A stretch of DNA of 64,000 nucleotides from Humulus lupulus (lineage: Eukaryota; Streptophyta; Magnoliopsida; Rosales; Cannabaceae). The translations under genes were made by a program, and so were the position numbers. This document shows positions 8,798-49,180 of the stretch, in pieces. The stretch covers positions 114,642,903 to 114,706,902 of the forward strand of contig NC_084802.1 of the NCBI RefSeq assembly GCF_963169125.1, written 5' to 3'. How positions within the stretch are numbered: the stretch's first letter is position 1; the number at the start of each line of letters is the position of its first letter. The notes below the pieces were generated by a model. That model made no database searches and was not told the DNA's origin. It worked only from the letters and a program-made list of their open reading frames with translations.

Positions 8798-9554
8798 TGT
8801 ACGCCTTGATTTTCCCACGGGCTGATTAGCAAGCTGAGCTGCGGCCTAATCATGATTATCTCGTGGACCACCCCAAGACCAGAGCTTCCGTCATAAGGTC
8901 GTACATCCTTAGCTCAGGGCAACCAAAGGGTTCGCCAAGATTGCCTAAGACTTGAGCCTGGATTCTGAAGGCCGAAGGTCGAGTTAAGTATCCAGCTCGT
9001 GGTACGAGCAGAATATGGAGGCTATGACCCTTTGTGAAGTCAACACACGCAAGGTAACGTGCATATATCAGACATCACGTGTCTGATATGCCCCTGACTT
9101 CTTGGACACGCAGCAGGAACGTGCGTATTCAGACACCCACGACTGGGTTGGGCCGTGCGGCCCATTATCTCTTTACCTATTGATTTGACCACACTTATGT
9201 GTCAGGTTTAGGAATTAATCATGAATGTCACAGAGTTGATACGATAGGTAAGAAGGTCACGGGATGACCTTCTTACCAAATCCCAGGTGCCTTCTCCTAT
9301 AAATATGTAGACCCTGGGAGTTGATAAGGGTTGGATGATCTCTTGTAAGAAATATCCTGTAATCGTATACCCAGAATAGAGCAATAATATTGACTAGTGG
9401 AGTAGAAGGATTTTAACCTTTGAACCACTTAAAAACCGTGTCTTGAGTCACCATTTCATTTTAAAAGAACACATATCTGTCTCGGTTCATTATTAGCACT
9501 AATCCCTTTCTCTTCTTTTCTTAAATTACCTGTTGGCGAAGAACCGCGTCAACA
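8798..9554 (+). repeat. C: 5' LTR (757 bp)
   Basis: It begins TGTACGCCTTGATTTTCCC and ends GAACCGCGTCAACA. A TATA box (CTATAAATATG) is at 9297-9307. The 3' copy is at 20779-21543. Confidence 0.93.
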
Positions 9555-9557
9555 GTT

Positions 9558-9573
9558 TGGTGCTTTCATTGAG
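9558..9573 (+). other. C: primer binding site
   Basis: TGGTGCTTTCATTGAG follows the LTR end by three bases, the position of a reverse-transcription primer site. Nearly the same sequence follows the F LTR at 43794. It is not the initiator tRNA-Met site; I cannot name the tRNA with confidence. Confidence 0.75.
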
Positions 9574-9612
9574 ATCAAGTTTGGTTAGTGCTGTCACAAA
9601 CATCCAACCATA

Positions 9613-12120
9613 GTGAATACTCGATCCAGGCACGGTAACGAGACAGAGCAACATGATGGGCAGGAGGTTCATCATACTGCCACTCCTGGTGAACAAGTTC
9701 CTGAGACCCAGCAGCGGCCAGGAAAGCAGCCGGTGGGCCAAGATGACACCGGAAGTTCGGCCCCCCGGCCACTTAATCCAAACCCGTGTTATTACGCGGC
9801 GGTGGAGATGGAGAACACTCAATTGAGGAGCCATCTAGCAATAGCTAACCAGCAGATCAAGGATGTGCTGGCCCGACTACCCCCTCTCACAACTGACGTT
9901 AACATCGGAGAGAGGCAAGGCGAGGCTCCTAAGTCTCACCAGGGTAACCGGTCCAGGCATAGCCGGTCGGATAGACTTCCGACAGCCAATTCCACTCCTT
10001 CATCATATCACCGAGAGGCAAGCTTCGAAGAAATGCCTGAAGCTAGGCAACAACAATACAGCCGTTCGGTCAGAACGTCAACTCCTAGCTCCCAGCCAAC
10101 CTTGAGAGCGCCCAGGGGAGCTCGAGGAAATTCCCGAAGGAGATCCGGGGAGGGCTCGCAGCATCGGCCCGTCCCCAACAACCGACCTGTGCCTTGTCCA
10201 GATCGTCAGACACGAGACCAGCAGGTTGGCAGGGCCGAAAGGCCGCCACCAAACTTGATTCGTCCTGACGGAACTAGGATCGCCTCTTCAGTCAGGTATC
10301 CTCCTTCTCCAATCAGGTATCCGTCTCCTCCTCGGCCTGTCCGAGATATCCCAGCCTATGGGAGTAGTAGGAGAAACCCGCCATTAGCTGGACCTTCCCG
10401 GCGTAGCAGGGCGCCAAGGGAAAGCCCAGATCATCCCCACCAAGGGCGGACTCCAAGCCTATCTAGCAGGAGCCACTGGACCGGCAATCGCCGGAGTGAT
10501 CTCTCTGGGGGAGACCTGCGTCAGCGTTTGAGTTCGGCACAAAGTCATCAAACCACCCAGGGAGGCGACCTGCGAGATTGCCTTAACTCCCATAGGGGGG
10601 AACCAGCAGGAGGAGATGGCCACGCTCGCTCAGGGGGGACCCTGTCTGAAGTACGTAACGGAGGGAATGCCCCAAATAACCTATCCCAAGATAGGAGGGG
10701 CAATAACCCACCAAATATGTACAATGGATCCGGAGCTGTTGAACAGCCCCGGAATAACCAAGGACATCAGGACCAAACCCTTGAGCGCCTGACTCAGATG
10801 GAGGAGTTGATGAGGAAGCTCCTGTCAGAAAAAGAAAAAGATGAATATGATTCAGGGGACGAGATGGAACTCTTCGCCCCCAGTATAGCAGCAACGGCGT
10901 ACCCATCTGGTTTCCGTATGCCTCACTTGTCAAAGTTCAATGGGGACGGAGACCCATCAGACCATCTAGGGATGTTCAACACCCTCATGATGGCCCACAA
11001 CATTGGCTCCGAGCTGAGATGTTTAATCTTCCCTTCCACACTGACTGGACCTGCCAGGCAGTGGTTTAAGCAAAGTAAAAGACAGTCAATCAACTCCTGG
11101 AAGACTTTCTCGGCGGACTTCAAAAGGGCATTCCGAGCCTCCCAGGCCACCCGTGTTCAGGTTGACTCCCTAGCTAACGTGAGGCAGCAGCCCGGTGAGA
11201 CTCTGAAGGCCTACCTGAGCAGATTTGCGAACATCACTGCTCGAGTCAGAGATGCGGATGATAGCTCCAAGCTCATGGCCATGAGAACTGGAATCCTCGT
11301 TGGAGGAGACCTCTGGAAGGATATACAAAGGAAGGGAGTCAGCTCGGTTAACGAATTCCTTAACAGGGCTCAAGAATGGATTAACTTGGAGGAGGCCGAA
11401 GCCTCAGCTGCGGGAACCAGCCAGGTCCCTGAACAGCTCGCTGGAGTGGGGACGGAGGTCGTGACAGCGACCCAAAATGTCACACAGAACAACCAGCCCA
11501 GTGGAGACAAAAGAAAGGGAAATGGCGAAAACAGTCAGCACGGCCAAAAAAAAAATAAGTCCGTAGACAAATTCAAGACCGTCTTCGCGACTTATACAGA
11601 GCTCACCCAGTCTAGGGAGAATATCTTCCTAGCTAACTCTACTCGAGTCCCCTGGAAGAGGCCGGAGCCATTAAAGCACCACAAGGGGAAGAGAGACACC
11701 TCCAAGTTTTGCCGTTTTCATAACGATGTTGGCCACAATACCAACGATTGTAGGCATTTAAAAGACGAGATCGAGACTCTCATCAGAGCCGGTCCCTTGG
11801 CTCAATACGCACGGAACATGGTTCGAGTAAGTCGACCTACTCCAGAAGTCCCGGCCAGTCAGCCCAGGCCTCGGGTAGATCAGGACGTCCCTCCTCCCGT
11901 GGTTGAAGGAGAGATATCCACCATCTCTGGAGGTCCGCATATGGCCGGCACGAGCAGAGGCGCCCAGAAGAGGTATGTGAACGAACTAAAGGCTCATAAC
12001 AGAGTAGAGTTCGTCTCGGAGCAACGCCAGTCAAAACAGCAGTGGTTGGAGAGGCAACCGATCATTTTCACGGAGGAAGATGTGAGCCATGTCCAGTTCC
12101 CTCACAATGACCCTTTGGTT
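9613..12120 (+). pseudogene. gag: C: Gag region
   Basis: Gag forms the particle that holds element RNA. The first 400 residues are a low-complexity arginine, serine and proline-rich stretch. The capsid-like part follows: [15 protein letters not shown], then [25 protein letters not shown] and [14 protein letters not shown], all typical of Tat Gags. Near 11710-11752 lies a zinc-knuckle-like motif, [14 protein letters not shown], in which the spacing fits C-x2-H-x4-H-x4-C rather than the usual CCHC. A run of nine A residues at about 11546 codes for lysines in a basic stretch. The region has no stop before the protease. Confidence 0.9.
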
Positions 12121-12954
12121 GTGGCAGTTCAGCTCGCCAATAGGAGGGTGAGGAGGGTACTGATAGAAAATGGGAGCTTGGTGAACCTCCTGTTCTGATC
12201 CACGTTGGAAAAGATGGGTTTGACCGTCGCCGATCTAAATGCGACCTCCATAATGTTGTATGGTTTTTCGGGAGAGGGATCAGTAGCAATAGGGACGATC
12301 GAGCTGGTGATCACCCTAGGAGAAAGATCTCGGACAGTCTCCAAACTTCTCGAGTTCGTGGTCATTGACTGCTCTGCGGCCTACAACACCATTTTGGGAC
12401 GACCTATGCTCATAGCTTTTGAGGCCGTCACTTCCATTCGCCACCTCGCGATGAAATTCCCTACTTCCACAGGAATCTGCACTGTCCATGGCGATCAGCT
12501 CACTGCCAGGGAATGCTACAACATTTCCATGAAGGGAAAGTCTAAACCCGGGCAGCTGGCAATGGCCATTCAAGATGGTGAAGAGGAATCTCAGGAACCC
12601 TTAGCTGATTCTGAGATTGAAAAACCTCAAAGTGCCGAAGGGGAAAATGTCATCTTAAGTGAGGACATTGACCCCCGAATAGGCGAAGACAGATCCAAGC
12701 TCCAGGCAATTAAGGAACTCGAGGAAGTGAACATCGATCCGCAGAATCCATCACGGATGGTCAAGCTCGGGAAAAACCTCTGTAGCAAGAGGAAGACGGA
12801 GCTGACTAAATTTCTGCGAGATAACTTGGACGTGTTTGCATGGTCCCATGAGGACATGGTGGGAATCAGCCCGAGTGTCATCATGCATACACTTCATCTG
12901 GATAAAAGCATGCCCGCCAAGTCCCAGAAGCAAAGACTCCTAGGAACAGCTTGA
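12121..12954 (+). pseudogene. C: aspartic protease and linker, catalytic Asp changed to Glu
   Basis: The retroviral-type aspartic protease would cut the polyprotein. The active-site motif reads LIENGSLV, where the related elements E and H have LVDNGSSV and LVDNGNSV. The codon at 12166-12168 is GAA, so the catalytic aspartate is a glutamate. A TGA at 12196 follows, and the frame resumes with STLEKMGL, GFSGEGSVAIG and FVVIDCSAAYNTILGRP (flap and second half of the fold). After that come a variable acidic linker and the conserved FAWSHEDMVGI segment that precedes RT. A second TGA is at 12952. Confidence 0.88.
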
Positions 12955-12963
12955 GCTGAAGCC

Positions 12964-14178
12964 TTGAAGGAAGAGGTGGCCCGGCTCAAGAAATGCGGCT
13001 TTATCCGCGAGGCCAAGTTTCCAATATGGGTCGCCAACCCCGTGCTAGTTCCAAAGCCTAATGGGAAAGGGCGGACCTGCATAGACTTCTCCGACCTGAA
13101 TAAGGCCTGCCCCAAGGATTGCTTTCCATTGCCAAGGATTGATCAGTTGGTGGACGCCACGGCGGGGCACGAGCTCATGTCATTTATGGACGCGTACTCA
13201 GGCTACAATCAGATCACGATGAATCCGGCAGACCAGGAACACACCAGCTTCATGACCCCGACTAACGTCTATTATTACAAGGTCATGCCGTTCGGGCTGA
13301 AGAACGCCGGAGCTACCTACCAAAGGTTAGTAAATAGAATGTTCGCAGAATAGATCAGAAAAAACATGGAAGTGTACGTTGATGACATGCTAGTCAAGTC
13401 AAAGATTGCCGATAACCATGCTTCCGACCTGGAAGAATGTTTTAAGATACTGCGGGAATATGGCATGAGGCTCAATCCACAGAAATGCACTTTTGGAGTC
13501 GCGTCAGGGAAATTCCTGGGGTTCATAGTCAATACCCGAGGAATCGAAGCAAACCCCGACAAGATCCGATCACTGCTCGAGCTTCCCTCGCCCAGGTCAC
13601 GAAAAGATGTCCAAGGCATGACAGGAAGAGTGGCAGCCCTCAATCGGTTTATTTCCAAGTCCACCGATAAGTGTTTTCCATTCTACAACCTGCTCCGAGG
13701 AAACAAGAAGTACGAATGGACAGAAGAGTGCGAAAGCGCATTCCTCGACCTGAAGGCACATTTGGCCGAGCCACCCGTATTATCCAAACCCAAAGCGGGA
13801 GAGCCTCTTTTTCTTTACCTGGCTGTCACTGAGGATGCATCTAGTGCCGTGCTGGTACGTGAAGAAGACCGAGTTCAGAGACCAGCCTACTACATCGGCA
13901 AGAGACTTCTCGGAGCTGAATCCCGGTACCCGTTGATGGAGAAATTGGCATTCTGCCTTATCACGACCTCGCAAATTCTCAGGCCGTACTTCCAGTCCCA
14001 CTCGATACACGTCATGACCAATCAGCCTTTAAGGCAGGTTTTGCAAAAACCTGAAGCATCGGGACGTTTGTTAAAGTGGGCCATCGAACTCAGTCAGTTC
14101 AAGATTCTGTACACTCCGCGAACTGCTATAAAAAGTCAGGCCCTGGCCGATTTTATGGCAGAATGCACGGGATTCTAG
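12964..14178 (+). pseudogene. C: reverse transcriptase and RNase H
   Basis: RT copies element RNA to DNA, and RNase H removes the RNA strand. Visible motifs in order: NPVLVPKPNGKGRTCIDFSD, CFPLPRIDQLVDAT, SFMDAYSGYNQI, FGLKNAGATYQRL, YVDDMLVKSK (catalytic DD) and FLGFIVNTRGIEANPDKI, then the connection and the first RNase H (LYLAVTEDASSAVLVRE, YYIGKRLLGAESRYP). TAG stops are at 13351, just before the YVDD motif, and at 14176 at the end of the RNase H. Otherwise it is well preserved. Confidence 0.93.
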
Positions 14179-14199
14179 GAGGATCCCGCAGAAGACTCA

Positions 14200-14640
14200 C
14201 CGCAGGTCACCTCGTCCCAGGCGTCATGGAGGATCTTTGTGGATGGTTCATCCAATGAGAACGGCTCCGGAGCTGGAATCATTTTGATATCCCCCGAGGG
14301 ACACAGATTCCACTCGGCACTGAGATTCGGGTTCAAGTCCTCCAACAACGAGGCCAAATACGAAGCTTTGCTGGCCAAGCTGAGGGTAGCCCAGGAGTTG
14401 AAGGCGGGCTCCGTCCAGTGCTTCAGTGACTCCCAGCTCGTGGTAAACCAGGTTCTGGGAGAATATCAAGCACGGGGACCCAAGATGGCCGCTTATCTGG
14501 AAAAGGTGAAAGCTGAGCTGTCTGCGTTTGAGCGAGGCTCGATCGAACAGATACCTCGGGAGCAGAACGCTAACGCAGATGCTCTTGCCAAGCTCGCCAC
14601 CTCTGGGGAGACGGAGACCTTGGGGTTACTACCAGTAGAA
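14200..14640 (+). pseudogene. C: second, archaeal-type RNase H domain (aRNH)
   Basis: The segment opens with IFVDGSSNENGSGAG (first catalytic Asp), followed by SSNNEAKYEALLAKL (catalytic Glu), CFSDSQLVVNQV (catalytic Asp) and QNANADALAKLA (final Asp). This complete D-E-D-D set is the additional RNase H found in Tat-clade retrotransposons, separate from the RNase H fused to RT. It has no stop within it. Confidence 0.92.
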
Positions 14641-14699
14641 TTCTTGGAGAAACCAAGTATAGAAGAAGTAAGGACGGAGGTCGAGATGATCGACGCCAG

Positions 14700-15942
14700 G
14701 TCGACCTGGATGACCCCCATCCTTGAGTATCTCGTCGAGGGAAAGCTGCCTGAAGGTCATAATGATGCACGACGAGTACTCTATCAAGCTCTGAGGTATA
14801 CGATAGTAGATGGGGTGTTATATCGGCGTGGACACTCCCTGCCCCTCCTACGATGTGTTCTTCCATATGAAGCAAAGGCCATCCTGCAGGAGGTGCACAA
14901 GGATTTTTGCGGAGACCACACTGGGGGGAAGAGCTTGGCCTTAAAGGTCCTGAGGCAGGGGTATTACTGGCCAACTCTGTCCAAAGACTCGATCTCATAC
15001 GTGAAGAAGTGCGACAAGTGCCAGAGATTCGCCGCAGTTGCCCGAGCTCCTCCAGTCGAGCTGAAGATGATCTCGTCCCCATGGCCGTTTGCCGTTTGGG
15101 GGATAGACTTGGTTGGCGCCCTCCCCACTGGAAAAGATGGGGTCTGTTACGCCGTAGTAGCCATCGATTACTTTACGAAGTGGGCTGAGGCAGAACCTTT
15201 GGCAACGATAACGTCCAAAAAAGTGCTTGACTTCGTGGTTAAAAGCATTGTCTGTCGATTCGACCTACCCAAGAAGATTGTCTCCGACAATGGTACTCAG
15301 TTCGACAGCGACCTGTTCACCGAATTTTGTGAAAGGTATGGGATTGTGAAAAGTTTTTCCTCCGTGGCCTATCCTTAGGCGAATGGCCAGGTCGAAACTG
15401 TCAACAAGAATCTAAAGGCGAGCCTCAAGAAGAGATTAGATGATGCGAAAGGGGTCTGGCCAGAACAGCTCCCCCAGGTCCTATGGGCGTACTGGACCTC
15501 GCATCGGACTCCTACGGGTCATACTCCTTTTTCCCTAACCTTTGGGAATGAGGTAGTCCTCCCCGTGGAGGTTAAGGTGCTTTCGCATAGGGTCCAATCT
15601 TACGACCATGACCGCAACCACGAGCTCCTGTGCAATTCCCTTGACCTAGTTGATGAAAGGCGAGAGGATTCGCAACTCCAGCTCGCCCATTATCAGCAGA
15701 AAATCACTCGCTACTTCAACACCAAAGTCAAAAAGTGCGCCTTTAGCGTTGGCGACTTGGTCCTAAGGAGAGTTTTCCTGGCCGAGAAAGATCCCAAAGA
15801 TGGAGTCTTGGGACCAAACTGGGAAGGACCGTACCAGGTCATCGAAATCATTAAGGAGGGAACTTATAAGTTAGCTCGGTTTGATGGAGGGGCGGTCCTG
15901 CAGACTTGGAACGCCATCCACTTAAAGAAATATTATCAATGA
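14700..15942 (+). pseudogene. C: integrase
   Basis: Integrase inserts the DNA copy into chromosomes. The zinc-binding end reads HKDFCGDHTGGKS, then GYYWPTL and KKCDKCQRF (HHCC type). The core has WGIDLVGALPTG, VSDNGTQFDSD and, after the TAG at 15376, ANGQVETVNKNLKA, so all three D-D-E residues are coded. The C-terminus has [12 protein letters not shown] and WNAIHLKKYYQ, then TGA at 15940. No chromodomain is seen, as expected for Tat. Confidence 0.92.
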
Positions 15943-16050
15943 TTCACTTGTAAGGCCTGGAAGGCCATTCTTTATGTATTAATGAAGATAAGCTTTTGTA
16001 CATGTTTGCAAGTGTAATCTAAAGTAACCACGAAAGACCCTTTCCCAGTT

Positions 16051-16064
16051 ACTTGGGGGGCATA
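16051..16064 (+). promoter_or_regulatory. C: internal polypurine-tract-like motif after pol
   Basis: ACTTGGGGGGCATA lies about 110 bases after the pol stop and resembles the true 3' tract (GCTTGGGGGGCAGA) next to the 3' LTR. The same kind of motif is found at the same place in G, H and E. Confidence 0.7.
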
Positions 16065-16096
16065 TGGTACCTGGATATAACCAAGTCTCCTTAATG

Positions 16097-17015
16097 ACTT
16101 AGAAGTTGATTCATATCGAATGACCGTTGTTTTTCTTAAAAAACGCGATATATTGATAAGGATTAAACGCTAACTAAGTCCTATCCTGGATATAACTGGG
16201 ACATAAAACTTAGAAGTTGATTTAAATCTATTGATCGTTGTTCTTCCTAAAGAGCTCGAGATATGGATAAAAGTTAACGCGAACTAAGTTTTCAAAATAA
16301 GTTCCTGGTCATAACCGGGTCACAAAACTTAGAAGTTGATTTAAATCTATTGATCGTTGTTCTTCCTAAAGAGCTTGAGATATGGATAAAAGTTAACGCG
16401 AACTAAGTTTTCAAAATAAGTTCCTGGTCATAACCGGGTCACAAAACTTAGAAGTTGATTTAAATCTATTGATCGTTGTTCTTCCTAAAGAGCTCGAGAT
16501 ATGGATAAAAGTTAACGCGAACTAAGTTTTCAAAATAAGTTCCTGGTCATAACCGGGTCACACAACTTAGAAGTTGATTTAAATCTATTGATCGTTGTTC
16601 TTCCTAAAGAGATCGAGATATGGATAAAAGTTAACGCGAACTAAGTTTTCAAAATAAGTTCCTGGTCATAACCGGGTCACAAAACTTAGAAGTTGATTTA
16701 AATCTATTGATCGTTGTTCTTCCTAAAGAGCTCGAGATATGGATAAAAGTTAACGTGAACTAAGTTTTCAAAATAAGTTCCTGGTCATAACCGGGTCATA
16801 AAACTTAGAAGTTGATTTAAATCTATTGATCGTTGTTCTTCCTAAAGAGCTCGAGATATGGATAAAAGTTAACGCGAACTAAGTTTTCAAAATAAGTTCC
16901 TGGTCATAACTGGGTCATAAAACTTAGAAGTTGATTTAAATCTATTGATCGTTGTTCTTCCTAAAGAGCTCGAGATATGGATAAAATTAACGTGAACTAA
17001 GTTTTTCAAAAAATT
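16097..17015 (+). repeat. C: 119-bp tandem array, about 7.7 copies
   Basis: The marker ACTTAGAAGTTGATTTAAAT begins at 16208, 16327, 16446, 16565, 16684, 16803 and 16922, an exact period of 119. A diverged copy at 16097 (spacing 111) starts the array. Copies differ by a few bases. It lies between pol and the antisense gene. A single degenerate relative is seen in H near 36350-36480. Confidence 0.95.
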
Positions 17016-18127
17016 GTAACCAAAATGCGTAAGGGCAAGAAAGAGGATCAATTAAAAATGTTAAATCAAATTTTCTTGAGGTGGAAGCACCTCATGCAAA
17101 GGTTACACAAAAAATATTAAAAAATAGTGAAGGGCACAAGAGAGGAAACACCCTAAGCTCCGCCAGGTGGCCCCTTGGAGGTCGCTGTCTCGCCTTGCTC
17201 AGCTGCGCCAGAGCCTTCCCCGCCCTCGGAGGGCGGTTCCTTATCAAGGCGAACTTGGAACTTCACCAGCAAGCGCTCCCAGAGGCTCGCTGACAGGAAG
17301 GAGAAGTCAACATTTGGATTGTAGGCCCAACAATGGTAGAACAGGTCTTCCAGGGACTTTTCCGAAGTTGTCTGCTCGGCCTTTAGGGTGGCCTGAGCCT
17401 CAGCCTTCGCGGTATCTAGGTCTGTCCGCGAGGTGGCGAGGGAGGTCTCGAGCTCTTGGACCTTCGAGCGGGTTTTTTCTAACTCGACCTACGAGGCCGC
17501 CAAGGCATCCTTAGCCGCCTGCAGGGTAGTCTCGTGCTCGCTCCTCATGTCCTCGAGCTGAGTTTTGGTCCTGGCGATGCTCCGATGAAGGGCAATGGCG
17601 CTATGCGAAGGTGTAAAGACAATTGCCTTTGAAAAAAGAGAGAAAAAACAGGGCAAAGTGCAGTAATAAAAAGCCATGAAAGGGTAAAGTCAGCTTACCG
17701 TTAGGGTCATGCCCAGTGAAGACTCCAGCACGCCCACCGGGCTCATTGTCTCGATGGCCCGAAGCTCCTTCTCATTGAACTTGTAGATGTGGCTGACGGC
17801 GTAGTTCGCCGACTCATACACCGTTCCCCGGAAGGCCTCTGGGATCTTCTCCAGATCTTGGGGATTGACTGGGATGCGTACCTCGGAGGGTACAATCGCC
17901 GAGGTCCCAAGCTCCGCTCCTGCGTCCCGGGCGGTGGCCGGAGCTCGCGGAGGAGGTGGAGGCATGTTGCTTCCCCCTGTAGCAGGAGGGACCGCTCCCA
18001 TGACCTGAGCAGCTGGGGCTTGCTCCTTCTCCTTTGCAGGAGACTTGGTGAGGGTCCCGGCGGCGTGCTTAGATGTCCGAAGCCTCTTCATTTTTGGCCC
18101 AGCGGCCCCTGCTGGGGGGTTCCCCCC

Positions 18128-18155
18128 GAAGAACGCACCTCGAAGAACGCACCTC
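18128..18155 (-). repeat. 14-bp tandem duplication inside exon 4 of the C antisense gene
   Basis: GAAGAACGCACCTC (plus strand) occurs twice in a row, at 18128-18141 and 18142-18155. Fourteen is not a multiple of three, so the duplication shifts the frame within exon 4: the frame entering from exon 3 is not the one that is open after the duplication. Confidence 0.92.
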
Positions 18156-19109
18156 GCAGGCTCTCCTCGGGCTGAGACATCTCTTCTGTCAAAGAAAAGA
18201 CATAAGTAGTACAAGTTAACAATCACACAAACAAAAACAAGGGGGGAAAAGGAAAAATTCAAGTATGTGTATACTAAAGGGGATCCTACCCCCCGGACTA
18301 GAAGAAGAATCTAAGTTGATTACTTCCCGAGCTGGCGCAAGTTCTGGGTCTGAGGCTGACTCAGGGCTAAATTCCTCTACATATAGCCTAAGCCCCGGAG
18401 CTATGGCGCCCCTCTGGAGTGATGGCCATGACCGAAGGTTGGTCCCATACTCCTCGAATAGGATCAACCTAAAGGCTAGGGTGTTATCTACTACTATGGT
18501 ACCCCTAGGCCGGCTATCTTGGTAGTCCAGCACGAGCTGGTCGACACAGTGGAGCAGGGTTGTGTTCAGGTCCGGATCACTTCGATGACGGTGGACGAGC
18601 TGCCTAGGATTGAACCTAGCCAGCCGGGGGTCTTCTGTGGCCCTATCTAGACTCCTAAACATGTAAGGGTTACCTTGGCCAGAAGGACCCGCGGCTGCTC
18701 CGGATTGGATCCTCTCCTCGCCCGTCCTCTGGGCGGCCTCCAAAGCCCGCTTCCTGTTCCTCACAAGGGGAACTTTGTCGTCCTCGTCCTCCTCATCTTC
18801 GTCTCCCGAGACCTCCTCCACGATGATGGGTCTGGTGTCGCGAGCTGGGGGGAGCCCCCGGGGCCTCCTGAGGTTCAAAGTCTGATTTGGGAAAATCAGC
18901 TTGCAGGCTACCATCGTCTCGTCTGTTACGAGCACGCAATAATCTTTCTCACTGGGGGGCAAGCCCGCCAGTGTCTCGTATTGGGCCCCGAGGGTCACAG
19001 ATTTCTCTATCCTCGTAAAGATGACTGCAGAATTAGTCTAAGTCAGAAAGGGATACGGGAGGAGCTGAAATGACACTTAACTTATGAGCTAAGGATGAAA
19101 AAGACTTAC

Positions 19110-19790
19110 GAGGATGATTGAAGTAGTGGAGCTCGCAGTTCCTGAACCCCGTCGACATGAAGAATTGATCCTTGAAGTCGTTGAGGTGGCTGGACAGCTC
19201 GATGACCGCAGCCGTATTGGGAAATCGGGTTAAGTAGTAAAACCCGTCGCCTCGCCCCCGCTGATCCGGGCTGGCCTTGAGGCAGAAGAAGTACAAAATG
19301 TCTGCTGGAGTGGGGACCTCCCACTCGTGCTTCAAAAATAAATATCTCAACCCCACCAACAACCGATAAGAGTTGGGGGGGAGTTGGAATGGGGCCAACT
19401 TCACATAATTTAGGAAGTCAGCGAAGTACTGGTCCAGCGGGAGGAATGCCCCCGCCTTGAAATGCTCGCCACTCCAGGCCGCGAATGCCTCGTTGAGCGG
19501 CACGCAGCTCCGCTCGCCTTCTGCGGGAGGCCGGGCAATCACTGACGTCCTCCCCAGCGTGATGTTATGGGAGAGGAATATCTTATTGATCTTCATCTGG
19601 TCGGTGATCTTTGAGACGATCTTCTCAGCCTCGAAGAACGCATCAGGAGCCACCTCGAGCTCCTGCTCCACTGCCGGACCAAAGTTGGGGATCGGGGAGT
19701 CCGGCATCACCGCCTTTCCTTTGTCTTTCTGGGAGGCCGAGCTGCTGACGGTCTGCTTGGAAGCATTCCTCTTTGGTGCCATCTGGTCGC
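19110..19790 (-). other. C antisense gene: first coding exon with the conserved N-terminal domain
   Basis: The exon starts after the acceptor ATCGTTAG (minus strand) and has ATG at 19782 (MAPKRNASKQ). It runs open for 224 codons to the donor C|GTAAGT at 19109. Conserved pieces include the lysine and serine-rich start, AFFEAEKIVSKI, FLPLDQYFADFLNY, EWEVPTPADILYFF and GDGFYYLTRFPNT. H has nearly the same protein (PTPADIMYFF, GDGFYYLMRFPNT). No stop interrupts it. Confidence 0.85.
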
Positions 19791-20505
19791 CTAACGATCA
19801 AAAAGAAAATATTTCAGAAAAGGCGACCCAAGCATGAGGAAAAATCAAATGTTATTTGCACGAGCTGAGGTAAGCCCAGCCCGCGAAGAGTGGGACCACG
19901 CGGTTCAATGAACACGCGCCTGTGCTCCCAACAGATCCCCGATTACTCAGAATTCGTGTGTCAGGAGGGTCAGGATAGAATTTTCCTTGGGGGGAAAGTT
20001 TCAGTAGGCAAAAATTGCAAAACCACCTGTGAAGCGTGTCCCCTAAGCTACCTGGTTTTGCGCCCAAAATTCCAAAACTCCTACCCAGAAATTCTCCCCA
20101 GAAAATGCATCCTATAAACCATACTCCTAAATGATTTCCTACAGCAAAATACCCTAACCTAAAAGGCTTTCACCCTTCATACCCATAAAAACCAGTAAAC
20201 CCTTGCATGTGGCTACAGTAAATATTTACCTAAGCTACAGTGAAAAATATTTTCAAAACACGCATGGTCAGGAGACTTACAGTGTTTGTTTGGGAGGTAA
20301 ATGAAGGTGTCGCCTAAATTGGAGCTTCGTAGGAGTTGCTGTCTCCAAAGATTCGAAGGAATCCTCACGCCTGAGCTTCTTGAACACTGAGAATGGCGGT
20401 CGCGGAGAAGAGGGTTTCTTTTTCTTCTGAGATGAAGAGAGAAGAAGGAAAGAAGTTCTGAGAAATTTCAAATGAAAGGGTGGCCCATGCGTAGGGTGGC
20501 CACCC

Positions 20506-20515
20506 CTTTTATATA
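20506..20515 (-). promoter_or_regulatory. C: TATA box for the antisense gene
   Basis: On the minus strand TATATAAAAG lies about 25-35 bases before the inferred first exon and about 260 bases inside the 3' LTR border. The exon after it is a pyrimidine and A-rich leader that ends at a good donor (ACT|GTAAGTCTCC at 20280). Confidence 0.65.
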
Positions 20516-20714
20516 TGTGAAGGGTCACGTGTAGAGGGCCGTTGGATGGCCCTGATGAGGGATCTGAGGCCCTCCACTCGAAATACGAAACGACGGCTGG
20601 GCATAGGCTAGGCCATTAAATGCGGTTCTCGTAAGACGTACCGTCACAAACCACGATGTTCCACTTATTAGGCGCCTCCGTAAGAGGTGGAATGTGAAGA
20701 GTTCATGGGGAAAG

Positions 20715-20778
20715 CTAAAAGCCCCTACTGTGGTCTTATACGACGTGGTATACCACGAGCAGGGGCTTGGGGGGCAGA
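20715..20778 (+). promoter_or_regulatory. C: hairpin and 3' polypurine tract next to the 3' LTR
   Basis: GCTTGGGGGGCAGA (20765-20778) touches the 3' LTR start and is the plus-strand primer tract. Just upstream, AAGCCCCT (from 20716) pairs with AGGGGCTT (20761-20768), so the tract begins within one arm of a hairpin. The loop holds a perfect palindrome, GTGGTATACCAC. CTAAAAGCCCCTACTGTG also precedes the 3' tract in H. Confidence 0.75.
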
Positions 20779-21543
20779 TGTACGCCTTGATTTTCCCACG
20801 GGCTAATTAGCAAGCTGAGCTGCGGCCTAATCATGATTATCTCGTGGACCTCCCCAAGACTGGAGCTTCTGTCATAAGGTCGTACATCCTTAGCTCGGGG
20901 CAACCAAAGGGTTCGCCAAGATTGCCTAAGACTTGAGCCTGGACTCTGAAGGCTGAAGGCCGAAGGTCGAGTTAAGTATCCAACTCGTGGTACGAGTAGA
21001 ATATGGAGGCTATGACCCTTTGTGAAGTCAACACACGCAAGGTAAACGTGCATATATCAGACATCACGTGTCTGATATGCCCCTGACTTCTCGGACACGC
21101 AGCAGGAACGTGCGTATTCAGACACCCACGAATGGGTTGGGCCGTGCGGCCCATTATCTCCTTGCCTATTGATTTGACCACACTTATGTGTCAGGTTTAG
21201 GAATTAATCATGAATGTCACAGAGTTGATACGATAGGTAAGAAGGTCACGGGATGACCTTCTTACCAACTCCCAGGTGCCTTCTCCTATAAATATGTAGA
21301 CCCTGGGAGTTGATAAGGGTTAGATGATCTCTTGTAAGAAATATCCTGTAATCGTATACCCAGAATAGAGCAATAATATTGAGTAGTGGAGTAGAAGGAT
21401 TTTAACCTTTGAACCACTTAAAAACTGTGTCTTGAGTCACCATTTCATTTAAAAAGATCACATATCTGTCTCGGTTCATTATTAGCACTAATCCCTTTCT
21501 CTTCTTTTCTTAAATTACCTGTTGGCGAAGAACCGCGTCAACA
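20779..21543 (+). repeat. C: 3' LTR (765 bp)
   Basis: It begins TGTACGCCTTGATTTTCCC and ends GCGTCAACA. It matches the 5' copy at most positions, with an additional 8 bases in the CTGAAGG segment near 20950. It has a TATA box near 21287. Confidence 0.93.
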
Positions 21544-21884
21544 GAGCCCGTTGTGACTTTTTTGGTAACCTACTCACTAGGATCTCCTCAAGCCTATTAT
21601 TGCAAATACATCCACATAATAATGCGGCCTTAATCACATAACACATTTAATCACATTTATACCCTTAATGGGTCAAAATTACAATTATGCCCTTATTAAC
21701 AAGAACGGACCCACATGCATGTTCAATACACATAAACATGCACATATATTCATATTGCCATATAAATCATGTATTCCACGTAGTCACAAATTTATTCAAT
21801 TAAATCCTTATATATAAATCCAATTATGCCCTTCCGGCACACTAATCAAGGCACTAAGCCTTATTAGCAAATTTGAGACTGTAC
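21544..21884 (-). mobile_element. D: minus-strand Tekay-like LTR fragment, right piece
   Basis: The reverse complement begins TGTACAGTCTC and continues TTGCTAATAAGGCTTAG, TGCCTTGATTAGTGTGCC and AAGGGCATAATTGTAATTTT, matching the first 300 bases of the B LTR. It therefore covers the start of an LTR on the minus strand. It sits within integrase sequence of G. Confidence 0.8.
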
Positions 21885-24499: not shown

Positions 24500-27400
24500 A
24501 CCAGATCAATGATTGGGTTCACTTCTTGAGCTTGTCCACCTGATGCTGTGATGACCTGTTCATCTCCATGGCTTGGATTGCCTTTCTCTCACCAAGATCG
24601 GCTCTGTCGCTGGCTTCATTGAGTTGCTCCTGAAGCTGGGAGATCTCCTAGACTCCTCGAGCGAACTCTGCCATTGCCTTCTTAGCCTCCTCCTTGGCCT
24701 TTTGAAACTTTTCCGAGGTCTTGAGAGCAGCCTCCTCAAGCTCCTGAGAGTGTTTCTGCTCGACTTCCAAGGTGGCTTGAAGGCGAGTGAACTCTTTTGG
24801 AAGGACTTGGTTCTTTTCCTTGAGATCAATTATCTTGTCACGGGCCCTTCGGAGTTCATATGACTTCTCCATCATAATATCGCCTAAGTGTTGACTAGCT
24901 AAGGCGGAGTGCATAAAAAGAAAAATTAGTTCAAGAAGTGTGGTGGGTAAGTAAATTAAGATCTCGAGAAGAGGTGACTTACCCGGATAGGGGCATATTG
25001 ACATGAAGCAACGAGAGAGGCCTCGTTGCTGTCACCCAGCTGGGCATAGTTGCGGGCGGTCAGCTCACACATGGTGGAGCTCACCCCCTAGAGGAGCTCG
25101 ACTGCAAGAGGGGTGACAACCTCCCCTTGCTTGGCAGATAAAAGATTTTCTAGCTTAGCTGACCTATCAGAGACACGATAGGTCACTCTCTTGGAGGCTT
25201 CATCTGGCGTAGGGTCTCCACAATGTCATGAAGGAGTCTGTTACCCTTTGCCATCCTCACATCAAAATGCTGGAGCATCACCAGTATTGCTCCAGTAGGT
25301 ACCCCTCATACCTCTTGGGTTATACCTGGAGTTGAGGACTAGAAGCCAACTCTTGTTTGTCTGAGTTATGGACCACTTCACCAGCCTCTTAGGGCTAGTC
25401 AGTCGTGGGAGCATCCGCTGGAGGAGAGGAAACCCTCTGCCTCTTGGATGGTGTTGGGGAGTCGGGATCCTCCCAAGAACGCAATGATTGTCCAGCAGTC
25501 GAGTAGCTTGGGGGTGCTCCCAGCCTTAGGGCTGATCGAGAAATATCAACTAGCCCCATGTGATTTGCAAGAACAAAGAAATTGTTAGCACGAATTCCAA
25601 AACAAAGACATAAAAGTTCCATAGGCTTCTCAGAAGCCTAACATAAGTTATGTCTTGGTGTAAGCATCGGAGGTGTCTAAATTTATCTCCCATCTAACAA
25701 CTCAAGTTAGAGCCATATTGGAAAAACCAGTTGGAGTTGAAAGATGTCACACGGTCTATGGGTATAAACCCTCGAGGAGGTAACTGTCTCCTTGGGAAAT
25801 GAAGGTAGACGTCTATCAATTCTAAGTAATCTTGAAACTCTTTTAGTCCAATGCGGTGCACAATCTGGATACAATTGAGAAGGGCGGGAGAAGCTCAGAC
25901 ATGTTCGTGACTTACCCTATCCCCTACGGGTGTGGCATGGTTTAGAGTAAAGGGAGATTTACCTGGGGCAAGATGAGAAACCTCCATCCTCGCTTTGAGC
26001 TCCCAGTCTTCTTGGGCTTCTCGATCTGCCTCTGATATTCCCCAGCCGCTCCTCCTGCAGCTGATGGTTCAACATTTCCACGGCGCGCCCATCAATACAA
26101 TTGATGTGTCGGGATGCCAGCTCCCAGGACTTCTTGGATTGGCAGTACTTGGTCTGATCAAGATTGTTGATATTCTGCCCCACGCTAAGAAGTTCTGACC
26201 CGATGAGGTTTACCTCCATCACTAAAAAGCTGAGCTCCAGGTCTTGCTCAGGGAGGGATTTCATCTCTTGGAGGTGGTCCTCAAAGATTTGGACATATGG
26301 AGTCCGACGGAAAGGACCTATTGAACAGAATGAGTAAGTAAATAATATGAATCAAAGAAACAAAGAAAAAAGAGAATGGTCGGGAAGATACTCACCAACC
26401 CTGGAGAAGTCGAGGATCGGGGTCGGGTTATTACGGGTCGGAAACCTGTTCGTGAAGAAGAAGGCATCCTTGTAATCTTTAGAATGGTTCTCATTTTGGT
26501 GGGGAGTATTGTAGTCGAGGGATGAGGCAACGTACTTTATTAGAGCGTATTACCCATCCCGATTGGTCTTCTTCCTCAGGATGGTAAGGAAGCTGTAGAA
26601 GTACAAGATCTCTGCCAGGGAAGGTGTGGGCTACTTTTGCTTCCAATACAAAACATACATCCCCGTGAGCACCTGATAAGCATTGGGGGAGAGTTGAAAG
26701 GGAGCTATCCCTACGAACTTTAGGAAGTCCACAAAATATTGATGTAGGGGCAGAGTGGCCCCAGCCATCAGGTGGGCTTGGCTCGAGGAGCCAAGACCAT
26801 TCATGCTGTGATGCGCCCTCTCGGATTCTCGACAAAGGCGTACCAAACATCTTTCATAATCGCCTAATGTATCATGATGGCCTCCAAGGCCTCAGGGTGT
26901 CAGAGTAGGGTGCGGTATTCCTTCGCTTCAAACCCATCAGCCTCGTTAGGCTGAGTGCAGTGTGGAACGGGGGCTCCGTTGTCTTCTTCCACGGTCAACA
27001 CCCTTTGAACAAGTAGCACTGGCCTCTCTGCTGCTAGGTCATCAGCACGGCCAACCAGTTCCCCAACTGGTTGTCGGGCATCTGCCCTCACGCCATCCTG
27101 TTGTTCGTAGTGTACTCAGGCCATGCCAAAGACTTCCTAATCAAAGTTGTAAAAACCTTGTTCGTGTAGTATTCGTAGTTCCTCAGACAACTGCAACAAA
27201 AACCAAGCAGATAGTATTTTGACCATAGAAAAGTGGGCCAAAACACCAGAAACCCTAAGACTTCTGCTCGGGGAGAATAAAGAAGAAGGTCTAAAGACTT
27301 GGGGTGTCCTCGGGGCCAAGGAATCAGCACCAGAAAACACCACCAGATATTATGAACATTGCCAGAATCTGGGAATTTTTCAGATTCTGGTCGAATGCCT

Positions 27401-27600
27401 AGAAACACAAAAAGTGCATAAGGTGTGCACTAGGCCATTATGGCCACTTGTAACGTCAAAATATGCCTAAAAATACCTATTGAAGGTTGAAATAGCCCCT
27501 CCAGTGCCACAAAAAGCATGCTCCTAAGCGTGCACCTAAACTCTCAAATGAAACTCGATGCAAACATAAAGATAAGAATGTACCAGTATGAGGATTCACC
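24500..27600 (-). pseudogene. G: antisense gene, decayed (transposon-like domain and coiled coil)
   Basis: At about 26846-26400 the minus strand codes LPLHQYFVDFLKFVGIAPFQ, LSPNAYQVLTGMYVLYWKQK and, after stops, KDYKDAFFFTNRF, the same domain as exon 2 of the C antisense gene. It ends at a donor-like GTTG|GTGAGT near 26395. A long coiled coil at about 24895-24560 (DLKEKNQVLPKEFTRLQATL, QKHSQELEEAALKTSEKFQK) matches the last exon of C, but the final tryptophan motif is missing. Several stops and shifts show it is dead. Intermediate exons are too worn to place. Function unknown. Confidence 0.7.
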
Positions 27601-27831
27601 AATAAATACTTACTTGAGATAAAGTGTCGATAGGTGTTGAAACGAGTATGAACTTTGAATAATCGTTTGCCGTTCACCCAAAAGTAAGAGGAATTTGACA
27701 ACCCATCCAGAATTGCAGAGAAAACCCAGGAATGTTTGAAGGCCTGGGAAGCTTAAGAAAGAAGAGAGGGTTTTTGAGTCTGGAAATTATGAATTTCAAA
27801 TGGTTAAGGTGAATACTGAGAGGCGGTTCTC

Positions 27832-27845
27832 GAGTTTTTATACTC
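27832..27845 (-). promoter_or_regulatory. G: TATA box upstream of the antisense gene
   Basis: On the minus strand GTATAAAAAC lies about 370 bases inside the 3' LTR border and upstream of the decayed antisense gene, as in C and H. Confidence 0.5.
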
Positions 27846-36600: not shown

Positions 36601-38339
36601 TATCAATTAGAATTGTTTAGTGAAGCCATCGGAAACTTATCTCGATCTAAATATAACCCCTATGATTGCGAGTGTGGAAGAATATGAAATTCATAAGTAT
36701 GGCAAGATAATGGATTAAGTTTAACAAAAATAGATCATAAAGTAACGAAAATGCATTAAACAAGTATATGAATATCATGAGGAAAAATAATCTCGAACTA
36801 AGCCCCAAGGCGATTGTCTGAATTTGTTAAAGCATAGTTACAACAGAAATTAAAAAAGCCATAAAACATCACTGAGCTCCGGTAACTTGCCCTTGTGATG
36901 ACACCTCCTCGTCGCCCCCTTCAGCAGCCTCAGAAGAATCCATGGTCTTGGAAGACTCTTGCAAGTGAGCTCTGGAACATGGCAAGATAACGTCCCTAAG
37001 ATCCGCATCCAGAAAGAAGAAATCCCTTTCTTGGTTGTATGCCCAACACCGATACAACATCTCATCTAGGGCATTCGTTGCTTATGCAGCATCCAGCTTC
37101 GCATGTTCAACATCCTGCTTCACCTTCTCAGCATCTTCCTTGGCTTTGGCCTCGACCTCGGACAACTTGTTTTTTTGGACATCGACCTCCTCAAGCTTTT
37201 TGTTGAGGTTGTCGATCTCGGCCTGCAGCTAATTTTGTTGCTGGATCACCTCAACAATCTTGTTCTTGGCTATTCTCTTGTTCTCCTGGGATGTAGCCAG
37301 AGCGACCTTGAGCTCCTCCCTTTGAGCTCGGAATTGGGCGATGCCACAAAATTGAGCTAACAGACTACAAAAGAAAGACGCAGGACATGATTAGCTCACA
37401 AAAGTAAAAAAAAAGAAACTAAATACTATAGGAGAGAAAAAGATAACTCACAGTCATGTTCATTCGCAAGGCAGACTCCAAGACATCCCTGGGGGAACTC
37501 TCCTTTATGGCCCTCAAGTCCTTGACGTTCGCTTGGTTGTTGTGACCCACCATGTGGTTCGCCATGTTATGGAGGGACCCTCGAAGTGCCTATGGTATCC
37601 TTGCAATCTCGAGGGGATGGACTGGGAGTTGAATAGATGGGGCTTTGCCTTGGACAATTTGGGGAACTAGAACAGGTTCATCGCGAGGAGGAGCGTCAGG
37701 AACGGTAACTGTAGTTTACCAGAGCTGGTGGTTGCGTCTGCTGCTTATGTTTCTGAGTGGAGTTGGCACCTTTATATTTTGTAGGAGAGTCGGTGTCAGC
37801 TCTGGAATTGGGGGCACTCTTCTTTGATATTCTTGCCTTCTTGACTATGGGTCCAGTTCTAGCTCCACCAGACTTAAAGGTGCCCTTCAGGTCCATACAT
37901 TCACCATCAAAAGGATGAGCAAAAGACTTAGAACCAAAAATTGGTTAGTAAGGGTAATGCAAGGAAAATAATAGAGCAAGAACCCTACCCTTTGAGTTAG
38001 AGGAGGAAACTACTATGATCGGCTTTTGGTTATGAATCGAACTGGGTAAAACCTCTAACTCTTGGACTATCAGTGGAGGGGGGGGGGGGACTCTAATACT
38101 ATTACATTTTGGGTCCTACGGGGTTCAGGCTCTTCATTCAGACTAGACTCATGTGTGGGCTACCTAATACCCAGGGAAAAAACACCCTCACAGAGGGAAG
38201 GCCACGACAAAAGATTTGTACCGTACTCCTAAAAAATGGTGGACCTGAAGTGAAGGGTGTTATCTACCACTATGTTACACCAGGGATAGCTATGGTCGTA
38301 TGGTACAACCAAGTGATCCACACATTGGAGGAGGGTCAT

Positions 38340-39162
38340 TGTGACAGTCAGAATTCCATGATCTGCAAGGCGAAAGGCCGGGTAAAAGCTGTGTAATCAC
38401 ACATCGCCAGGGGAAGGTCAAGTGTAATGATTCTAAGACTATGTAGGTATGGGACTACAAAGTTGAAGATGGCTTAAATGGATTGATGGACACTACCTAT
38501 GCCAACAAGATGCATCTTTTTTTCGATAGCCCATCACTTGAGAACTCCAAAGTTAAGCGTGCTTGACTTGGAGTAGTCTCATGACACGTGACCTCTTGGG
38601 AAGTTTTCTCAGGAAGCTAGCGAGTGAGGAAAAAGCACACTGGAAAGACTCGTGTTGGTTTGCAGGGCCAGTAGTCAATTCAGGAAGCAGCCATAGTGAT
38701 GTGGGGCGTTACAAATGGTATCAGAGCCTTGACCTAGCTTGAAGTGTGGCGGACGAGGACGTCGGACCCCTAAAGGGGGGAGGGTGATTGTGATAGTCAT
38801 AATCCCGTGATCTGCAAGGGGAAAGATCGGGTAAAAGCTGTGCAATCCCACATCGCTTGGGGAAGGTCAAGTGTAATGATTCTAAGACTGTGTAGGTATG
38901 GGACTACAAAGTTGAAGATGGATTAAATGGATTGATGGGTACTACCTATGCCAATAAGATGCATCTTCTTTTCGGTAGCCCATCACTTGAGAACTCCAAA
39001 GTTAAGCATGCTTGATCTGGAGTAGTCTCATGATGGGTGACCTCCTGGGAAGTTTTCCCAGGAAGCATGCAAGTGAGGACATAGCACACTGGAAAGACTC
39101 GTGTTGGTTTCCAGGGCCAGTCATCAATCTAGGAATCAATGATAGTGATGTGGTGTGTTATA
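38340..39162 (+). mobile_element. CAS: Cassandra-type TRIM retrotransposon with 5S-like LTRs
   Basis: Two LTRs of 374 bases each (38340-38713 and 38789-39162) flank only 75 bases, which hold a tRNA-iMet primer site (TGGTATCAGAGCC, 38716-38728) and a purine tract (AAAGGGGGGAGGG). Each LTR contains a stretch resembling plant 5S rRNA: GTTAAGCATGCTTG, AGTAGTCTCATGATGGGTGA and CCTCCTGGGAAG. The flanks are GTCAT (38335-38339) and GTCAC (39163-39167), a target duplication with one change. It codes for nothing; such elements depend on proteins of other retrotransposons. Confidence 0.92.
38941..39057 (+). promoter_or_regulatory. 5S rRNA-like segment in the 3' LTR of CAS
   Basis: The segment aligns with plant 5S rRNA. 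The box C region is kept (ATGGGTGACCTCCTGGGAAG), and GAACTCCAAAGTTAAGCATG matches the box A/intermediate region with a few changes. The copy in the 5' LTR (38492-38609) is more changed (ATGACACGTGACCTCTTGGG). These are promoter-like remnants, not a 5S gene. Confidence 0.88.
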
Positions 39163-40938
39163 GTCACGTTCAGGTCCATATCAACTAGATGTCGACTCAC
39201 TAGCTGTTGTGGATTGAATCGAACTAGCCTAAAATTGGCAGCAGCTCAGTTTAATTCTCTATATAGATTAGCTTGGCCAGAAGTGCCGATTATTGCGCAC
39301 GATTTAGCTTGGTCTGGGTCAGGAAGTTGCCCATCGTCAGGGACCTTTCTTTTGCACACCAGCTGCGTGACTTCTTCTTCCTCTTCGGTGTCTTCAACGG
39401 CAGGGGGGACTTCTTGAGGAGGCGGGAGCTTAGGGGAGGACCTCGAGCTCTAATGGCCACTATCTGATTATTTCAGATCAGTTTGTAGGCCACCATGGTA
39501 GCATCATTAACTACGAGATAGTGTCTCATATTGACCTCCAAGGGTCTCTGATCGCCCCGTTCTCCTGTATATAGTTGCATAAAGTAACAACTCAATCATA
39601 ATATGTTTAAACTCGATCAAGAAGGAATTCAAGTACAAAATTCGAAGAGCAAAGAAACTTACGAGGATGGTTGAAATACCGATGGGTGCAGTTCTTGAAC
39701 TCGTTTAACATGAAGCACTGATCCTTGTAGTCATTTGGGTGGCTGGGGAGGTCGATAACGAAGGTCGTATTGGGGAATCTCATGAGGTAGTAGAAACCAT
39801 CACCTAGCCCCTTCTGTTCGGGGTTAGCTTTGCAGTAGAAGAAGTACATGATGTCGGCAGGGGTGGGGATCTCCAACTCGTGTTTCAAAAATAAATATTT
39901 CAGCCCCACGAAAAGCCAATATAAATTGGGGGGAAGCTAGAATAGAGCCAGTTCGATGTAGTTCAAAAAATCCACGAAGTACTGGTCCAAACGGAGAAAG
40001 GCACATGCCTACAGATGCTCGACACTCCAGGCCCAGAAGTCACCCTGAAGTGGGGTGCAACTTCACTCTCTTTCCAATGGAGGTCGGGAAACAAGGCCCT
40101 CGGATCGTAATTTGATCCCGTGGCTCAACAAAATTTTATTCACCTTGCGGGTCTTTATTCGGGATTCGATGCGCTCAGCCTCAAAAAAGGCGTTGGGGTC
40201 AACTACCAGGCCAAAGTGGGGAATAGTGGTCTACGATGCAATCTTCTTGCTCTTACTCTTTCTTTGGGAAGAAGAGCTTGTGACTAACTTCTTCTGATGG
40301 GCCATGATCTAGCTCGTCTGATGACAAATCGGCCTGTTAGATGTGACCTAAGACAAAACCTTGCTACAACAATAAAGGTACGATGCCCCGAGGGTTTGAA
40401 TTTGATTTATTCAACGTGTGTCCACGCACGTTCAGTAACAACACATAGTAAACTCAAGAAATCCCCTGATACTTCGGGATTGGCTTGATACCTTTTTGAA
40501 GGCAGTTTAATGCAAAACAACTTGGGGAATCGTAACCCTTAAGCTATCAAGAAGTGAACCTAAAATCCCTCAAATTTTCTACGCATACACATGCAACCCT
40601 CTTTCAAAACCCAGAAAATTACCCACTTTTTGTGTACATTATTTCTAATCAAACCTAGTACTGTTTTTTGGCCTATCAAAATTCTCTACTAAACATGAAC
40701 ATGGCCAAAGTAAGAAACTATACTGGAAAATTTCGTAATATTTATTGAAAAATAAGAGGGAGAAATTTAAACTGAGTATAGTAGTACTTATAGATTAGAT
40801 GTTCGATCGAGGGAAGTAATGATAGCTCCAAAGATAGTAGCCTAAAAGCTTCTGGAGAATGAGAGAATGCCGAAGGTTTCCGAAAATGCTCTAAGAAGGA
40901 AAGGGAATTTTTTTTAATGCAAAGGTGGTGAGGTTTAG

Positions 40939-48599: not shown

Positions 48600-48611
48600 T
48601 CTTATAAATAG
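48600..48611 (+). promoter_or_regulatory. E: TATA box of the antisense gene
   Basis: CTTATAAATAGG lies about 60 bases from the 3' LTR border on the plus strand. About 75 bases on is a donor-like CAAGAG|GTAAGG (48688), and before the gene start is an acceptor-like TTTTGTAG (about 49128), which would give a 5' UTR intron as in C. The splice sites are inferred only. Confidence 0.5.
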
Positions 48612-49180
48612 GCCTTCATGCATGGCCTAATATTTACTCCTTACTTCCTTAGCTTAGTGGTTTGGAGAGCCCTTCCTTTTTCAAGAGGTAAGGGGTTCAT
48701 CCCTTACAACCTCATTTTTTCCATAGCTTATTTTATTTTATTTTTTCAATTCATTTTCCTCACTTTTTGTTTATTTATTATTATTTTTTTTTACATATGA
48801 GCTAATTTTTTGGAGTATCTATTTGGTGGCTAACACATCTTTCTGGTCCATTCTTCCAGACGCGTATTTTTGACCCTTTGGTGCTTTTCGCCCCTCGACC
48901 TCCTTTCGACCCCAACTTCGCTCTCTTAACCGCTTGAGGTATATTTTCTCTCCCTCTCCCTTTGTTTTCTTTTATCGGGTCCAAACTAGTATTACTCGGG
49001 AAGGGGTACCTTAGCCTGAGCTTGTAGTGAGTTTGACCATATACATGCCCCTCTTTTTTATACCTTGTAGTGGGCCATTTAGGACGCTTGCATCTAGAGA
49101 TATTAAGCCTATTCCTCTGTGTTTTGTAGCCATCCCCTCATTTATATGCGAACCCCTTTTCGCTTTCGGGACGAGGTCTC

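Follow-up and report, generated by a model that had tools for sequence, protein, structure and literature searches.

We analysed a window of 64,000 nucleotides from hop (Humulus lupulus, contig NC_084802.1, positions 114,642,903 to 114,706,902 of the forward strand), numbered here from its first letter. Within it, positions 8798-21544 are occupied by element C, a retrotransposon with TG...CA ends and a purine tract preceding its 3' long terminal repeat (LTR). Antisense to the gag and pol genes of C, in the interval between pol and the 3' LTR, lie a TATA box, a leader exon and four coding exons separated by T-rich GT-AG introns. The initial annotation of this stretch had proposed a complete spliced gene kept by selection, with a product of about 790 residues. 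Our analyses indicated that the locus is very probably the degraded remains of the accessory gene that Tat/Retand elements carry in antisense orientation, an intron-containing gene of its own.

Copy numbers below refer to family C, which comprises C and 39 fetched copies; together these are the 40 scored matches to a 401-base segment of exon 3 (4453 first-look candidates in the 2.48 Gb assembly). Positions with an 81-base identity to C under 75% were masked, and the splice-site, omega and composition analyses used the 33 near-complete copies left after exclusion of 7 of the 40 for more than 10% masking. The proposed TATA box (TATATAAAAG), the ATG at 19782 and the four GT-AG boundaries at 20280/19790, 19109/19024, 18289/18185 and 17698/17626 were all seen in the sequence of C, and the gene is composed as follows.

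About 20515-20506, minus strand: TATA box of the antisense gene, seen directly; TATAT-AAAAGG in 35 of 40 aligned copies
20281-20490, minus strand: exon 1, untranslated leader; start placed from the TATA box, donor GTAAGT at 20280
19791-20280, minus strand: intron 1, 490 nt, low family divergence; GT-AG in 31 of 33 copies
19110-19790, minus strand: exon 2, with the ATG and a TRP28-type N-domain (PF04195, 21.9 bits, cut-off 26.2)
19025-19109, minus strand: intron 2, 85 nt, T 39%; GT-AG in 33 of 33 copies
18290-19024, minus strand: exon 3, acidic stretch and conserved FEEYGTNL..WPSL block
18186-18289, minus strand: intron 3, 104 nt, T 48%; GT-AG in 30 of 33 copies; junction joined in protein records P0016 and P0017
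17699-18185, minus strand: exon 4, basic patch, proline-rich stretch and a block resembling P0016
18127-18156, minus strand: 14-bp tandem duplication, a frameshift in exon 4
17627-17698, minus strand: intron 4, 72 nt, T 49%; GT-AG in 31 of 33 copies
17153-17626, minus strand: exon 5, coiled-coil-like stretch (by eye) and C-terminal W..NP..DF.F
17491-17489, minus strand: in-frame stop in exon 5

Analyses of the frames and their boundaries supported the assignment of these segments as exons and introns. Lesions in exons 4 and 5 apart, every coding exon of C is open in the predicted frame. The introns contain 34-49% T and 35-44% GC, compared with 16-22% T and 56-62% GC in the coding exons; a contrast between T-rich introns and T-poor exons is favoured by plant splicing. 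All four GT-AG pairs were retained together in 27 of the 33 copies. Within one family such retention would count as weak evidence, and comparison between families should be more informative.

A protein search with exon 2 returned 13 relatives, 3 of which carry PF04195 in their database annotation. In P0001, P0003, P0006 and P0012, which extend to the end of exon 2, the likeness persists to the RK encoded at the GTAAG donor, followed by divergence or by the end of the protein, while in P0014 and P0015 similarity is lost at the exon 3 donor. Two Humulus lupulus protein records, P0016 and P0017, have exon 3 and exon 4 joined at the predicted site, and P0016 contains the join of exon 4 to exon 5 as well. 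Comparison of P0016 with the genome gave at least 253 matches (47,753 first-look candidates; 81 scored), and among the matches listed most break near residues 222 and 370, the places of introns 3 and 4. Additional joined plant proteins were not found among the 8000 candidates sharing most words, the 29 proteins from this search all coming from short contigs. Together, the frames, the intron composition and the database protein records make splicing the most likely reading, and we have considerable confidence that the gene is spliced as drawn.

As a separate observation, the genome holds very many copies of the P0016 type, and two or more of the hop protein records, named 'uncharacterized', represent copies of this kind; host gene counts may therefore be inflated. 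Intron 1 (19791-20280, minus strand) shows some of the lowest divergence in the family, 0.047 (0.025 outside CG/CHG sites), which is like that of exon 3, compared with up to 0.11 in introns 3 and 4. A regulatory signal, on one strand or the other, may reside there.

Relatives of the gene were recognised in three other elements of the window, designated H, G and E, to which the tblastn matches were assigned by position.

36875-40230, minus strand: homologous gene in H, decayed, exon order as in C (tblastn, all four coding exons)
24520-27842, minus strand: strongly decayed, partly recognisable gene in G; TATA 27842, leader donor 27613, lower bound by eye
48603-51651, plus strand: homologous gene in E; TATA 48603, intron 2 at 50235-50320, intron 4 at about 51034-51132, coiled coil to 51651

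The three relatives had been proposed from the outset, and they were found to be of very different completeness. In H all four coding exons matched those of C in order, with identities of 61% over exon 2, 57% and 34% in exon 3, 46% in exon 4 and 34% in exon 5. The gene in E matched in exon 2 (34%, 49829-50221, plus strand) and exon 5 (30%, 51283-51627, plus strand), and that in G in exon 2 only (36%, 26879-26442, minus strand). The pol of C aligns with E on the minus strand and with H on the plus strand, and the gene is therefore antisense to pol in both of these elements. By eye, C, H and E have intron 2 at an equivalent position, and in all three an intron precedes the coiled coil; intron 3 gave no sign in E. 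The final W..NP..DF.F motif, originally ascribed to C, H and E alike, is exact in C and takes variant forms in H (W..NQ..DF.F) and E (W..DP..DF); by eye, it was not seen in the heavily decayed G.

Two further features of these relatives were recorded. In the exon 3 region of H (38327-39160) there is a 385-bp direct duplication, 89% identical, with a spacing of 449. In E, an additional open stretch lies upstream of exon 2 (49182-49631, plus strand), with nonsynonymous (N) to synonymous (S) counts of 7:9 for shared variants versus 58:24 for singletons (p=0.046); it is perhaps an additional N-terminal coding exon.

Comparison of shared with singleton variants assumed that singletons arose mostly after insertion and that variants in at least three copies came mostly from the spreading phase of the family. 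Stops were entered as N in the counts, and repeated mutation at CG/CHG sites blurs the test. In family C (n=40), third codon positions of the antisense frame were the most variable in all four coding exons. Among the sites with minor variants that together occur in at least three copies, the share of third positions was 69/139 (exon 2, p=5e-5), 44/102 (exon 3, p=0.025), 36/83 (exon 4, p=0.036) and 30/72 (exon 5, p=0.086). The N:S counts were 130:137 for shared variants versus 340:177 for singletons (Fisher p=5.3e-6), a difference present among transversions (5:10 versus 128:27, p=1.1e-4) and transitions (125:127 versus 212:150, p=0.03). When all six frames were compared, the predicted frame alone was without a common stop codon in all four exons, and the shifted antisense frames, used as controls, gave p=0.57 and 0.19. 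Family E (21 copies) gave 56:54 for shared variants versus 232:108 for singletons (p=0.0013).

Substitution rates, which the initial annotation had put forward as a check, pointed the same way. Between C and H, dN/dS was 0.145 in exon 2 (189 codons; dS 1.78, close to saturation) and, for a portion of exon 3 (61 codons), 0.265, stops being skipped in both. A codon model for the 33 copies gave an omega of 0.51 for all exons and of 0.35, 0.57, 0.58 and 0.63 for exons 2-5, values that biased mutation may have lowered and for which internal branches make up 9% of tree length. These sequence comparisons supported the antisense protein having been kept by past purifying selection while the element spread, and we regard it as highly likely that the antisense gene is a real protein gene.

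Several observations weigh against a spliced and selected gene. The distance from the TATA box to the leader donor is alike in C (235 nt) and G (229 nt) and only about 85 nt in E, and a clear leader donor was not found in H. Conservation of the splice dinucleotides in family C, taken singly, was not clearly above the intron background. P0002 diverges from C upstream of the exon 2 donor, P0017 departs from the frame within exon 4, and both P0016 and P0017 begin inside exon 3; these two records may be computed gene models, and hence give support rather than proof. Among the matches listed for P0016, three continue from about residue 240 to 532 through intron 4, with internal stops. C itself is broken twice, by the exon 4 frameshift and the exon 5 stop, while none of the 33 near-complete copies reads through to the end and exons 2 and 3 are open in just 6 of them. 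Ten of the shared variants in family C are stops. Among the sense-frame controls (p=0.57, 6e-4 and 0.26) one gave a low value, though sense frames have common stops, as did one of three non-coding pseudo-frames (p=0.46, 0.18 and 0.014); the controls are imperfectly flat, yet none matches the coding frame. In family E there was no effect among transversions only (singletons 93:14 versus shared 9:1, p=1), and exons 3/4 (p=0.19) and exon 5 (p=0.17) were singly non-significant. Finally, the AlphaFold model of exon 2 was poor, with a mean predicted local distance difference test score (pLDDT) of 37.

The state of the individual copies indicated which part of the initial proposal could be retained. 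The joined reading of C stops about 500 residues in, because the 14-bp duplication shifts the exon 4 frame, and with the further stop in exon 5 a complete product of about 790 residues was not upheld for C. The duplication was absent in all five sister copies readable at the site, out of 11 inspected, and the ATG was kept in 33 of 33 near-complete copies. Selection on the unit was borne out by the tests in the C and E families and between C and H; its completeness was not, as C is incomplete and an intact copy was lacking among the 33.

The element that carries the gene looks defective, its gag-pol being divided among several open reading frames (ORFs).

8798-9555, plus strand: 5' LTR of C, TG...CA, sense TATA at 9298 (LTR-LTR alignment)
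9589-12198, plus strand: gag ORF (PF03732, E=1.8e-16)
13354-15942, plus strand: pol remnants in three ORFs, with reverse transcriptase, RNase H, RVT_3, integrase and a weak SH3-like match (Pfam scan)
16184-17011, no strand assigned: array of seven 119-bp tandem repeats, flanked by pol and by the antisense gene's 3' end
20779-21544, plus strand: 3' LTR of C, sense TATA at 21287

The two LTRs are 96.6% identical over 766 aligned positions. The Pfam scan gave a sense-strand order of gag, reverse transcriptase, RNase H, second RNase H (RVT_3) and integrase, with RT_RNaseH within 13354-14178 and RVT_3, H2C2 and rve within 14179-15378. A hallmark of the Tat branch is an additional RNase H, of archaeal type, located between the first RNase H and integrase. 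The region from the end of pol to the 3' LTR is long, 4.8 kb (15942 to 20779), and contains the antisense frames; on these sequence features we assign C to the Tat/Retand-type Ty3/gypsy elements. The antisense TATA box (20515) is internal to the element, some 265 bp away from the 3' LTR, and is divergently oriented relative to the sense TATA of that LTR (21287); the upstream portion of the LTR separates the two. The seven 119-bp repeats lie where pol and the antisense gene converge, between their 3' ends, and could be a two-way terminator or a spacer.

In predicted order, the protein consists of a TRP28 N-domain, an acidic, a basic and a proline-rich part, a coiled coil and the W..NP..DF end. 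Exon 2 of C scores below the PF04195 cut-off; 10 of the 18 members of the exon 2 alignment match this family at E up to 0.1, and exon 2 of E reaches 44.3 bits, above the cut-off of 26.2. The coiled-coil part of the exon 3-5 stretch of E gave sub-threshold matches to mitotic-checkpoint and tropomyosin-like coils. A sequence search of the PDB gave 0 matches, and a scan of viral contigs for relatives confirmed 0.

That antisense frames occur in Tat elements, as had been stated for this locus, agrees with the literature, in which an antisense TRP28 ORF between pol and the 3' LTR is a hallmark of Retand elements (PMC11963269, PMC7264820). A 2025 survey using ORF Finder reported antisense coding regions in all recent Retand clusters, TRP28 in 97% of them, along with Smc, mitotic checkpoint and other domains; the interval from pol to the 3' LTR is 2,933-6,566 bp, and TRP28 is predicted to bind DNA (PMC11963269). 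The ORFs of that survey (Vicient 2025) resemble the gene of C in being antisense, in their position between pol and the 3' LTR, in TRP28, in the repeats near pol and in the long region. They differ in being contiguous ORFs, whereas here TRP28 and the coiled coil are exons of one predicted gene. Because the coiled-coil part of E draws the sub-threshold matches described above, what the survey labelled Smc, MAD and TolA would, by our comparison, be the coiled-coil exon.

The gene23 of the maize Grande element is likewise an antisense accessory gene; it is transcribed from its own promoter and its protein is nuclear (PMC7264820, citing Gomez-Orte 2013), while C has a TATA box. A study of antisense and spliced transcripts has been called for (PMC7264820). 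The predicted gene anatomy also fits that of hbz of human T-cell leukemia virus type 1 (HTLV-1) and aph-2 of HTLV-2, antisense genes that are expressed from the side of the 3' LTR, are spliced and encode a nuclear protein acting on expression of the element (PMC10186651). HBZ is a bZIP protein, whereas the C gene has an internal promoter and leader and four coding exons, and homology is not claimed. An exon-intron gene combining the TRP28 and coiled-coil ORFs was not found in print in our literature searches; we regard the antisense gene as of a known kind, and its intron-bearing, exon-uniting anatomy as apparently new.

Based on this anatomy, we propose the following course of expression. RNA polymerase II would initiate at the antisense TATA box, probably with help from the segment of the 3' LTR lying between the two TATA boxes, and the spliced antisense transcript would run toward pol and end near the tandem-repeat array. 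Genomic RNA would be made from the opposite strand, where the introns read CT...AC and would be unspliceable. We infer that the introns survive the RNA cycle because the genomic RNA carries them backwards; antisense orientation would then be what permits a retroelement to keep an intron-containing gene. The protein would be made by integrated copies and would control the element's own expression or its nuclear steps. Because of the order of the protein parts and the nuclear localisation of GENE23, we tentatively favour a nuclear, oligomeric regulator bound to nucleic acid and analogous to HBZ. We speculate, with similar reserve, that these parts belong together: the spliced antisense gene as a general Tat/Retand plan, the ORFs of surveys as its exons, introns preserved by antisense orientation, and a nuclear regulator that is an independent plant counterpart of HBZ.

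There is a substantial chance, a little short of even, that the gene is real and spliced and that its protein instead helps the integration complex to enter the nucleus or to find its target, or acts against host silencing. Both translocation into the nucleus and the accessory proteins of retroviruses have been discussed for these elements, and the nuclear GENE23 would suit such a role (PMC7264820). A promoter adjoining the 3' LTR of an integrated copy would fit a regulator better than a component of the particle; the sequence itself does not discriminate between a feedback regulator and a role in import, targeting or anti-silencing.

It is unlikely that the TRP28 ORF and the coiled-coil ORF are separate, unspliced antisense genes and that the GT-AG joins are unused. 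The 2025 survey did recover its TRP28, Smc and mitotic checkpoint ORFs as such with ORF Finder, and a word search of the survey text gave 0 occurrences of 'intron' (PMC11963269). Against this, four exon frames are open and constrained with T-rich GT-AG gaps between them, the likeness of relatives ends at the donor, and two hop protein records join exons there. The spliced antisense gene also accounts for the data better than an antisense transcript acting as RNA, through double-stranded RNA or interference with genomic RNA, with the protein incidental. Silencing triggered by antisense RNA has been considered for elements of this kind (PMC7264820). The bias among codon positions, the difference in N:S between shared and singleton variants and a dN/dS of 0.145-0.265 favour a protein; we consider an RNA acting in its place very improbable, while an RNA role alongside the protein would be compatible with these data. 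An origin of the open stretches and GT-AG pairs by chance, on the reverse strand of mere filler, can practically be dismissed, for although C carries lesions and GT and AG dinucleotides are frequent, exon homology of 30-61% extends to H, E and G, H has all four coding exons in order, selection was detected in two families, and TRP28 antisense ORFs occur in nearly all recent Retand clusters.

Some plant genomes contain Retand elements in abundance, and the TRP28 antisense ORF is found almost throughout their recent clusters (PMC11963269). If a multi-exon gene underlies it, ORF surveys have cut that gene into pieces and the real product is unstudied, while annotation pipelines may count some copies as host genes. 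If true, this reading would also explain the antisense location of the gene, as only there would introns survive retrotransposition, and would offer a concrete, testable analogy to deltaretroviruses and their spliced antisense genes.

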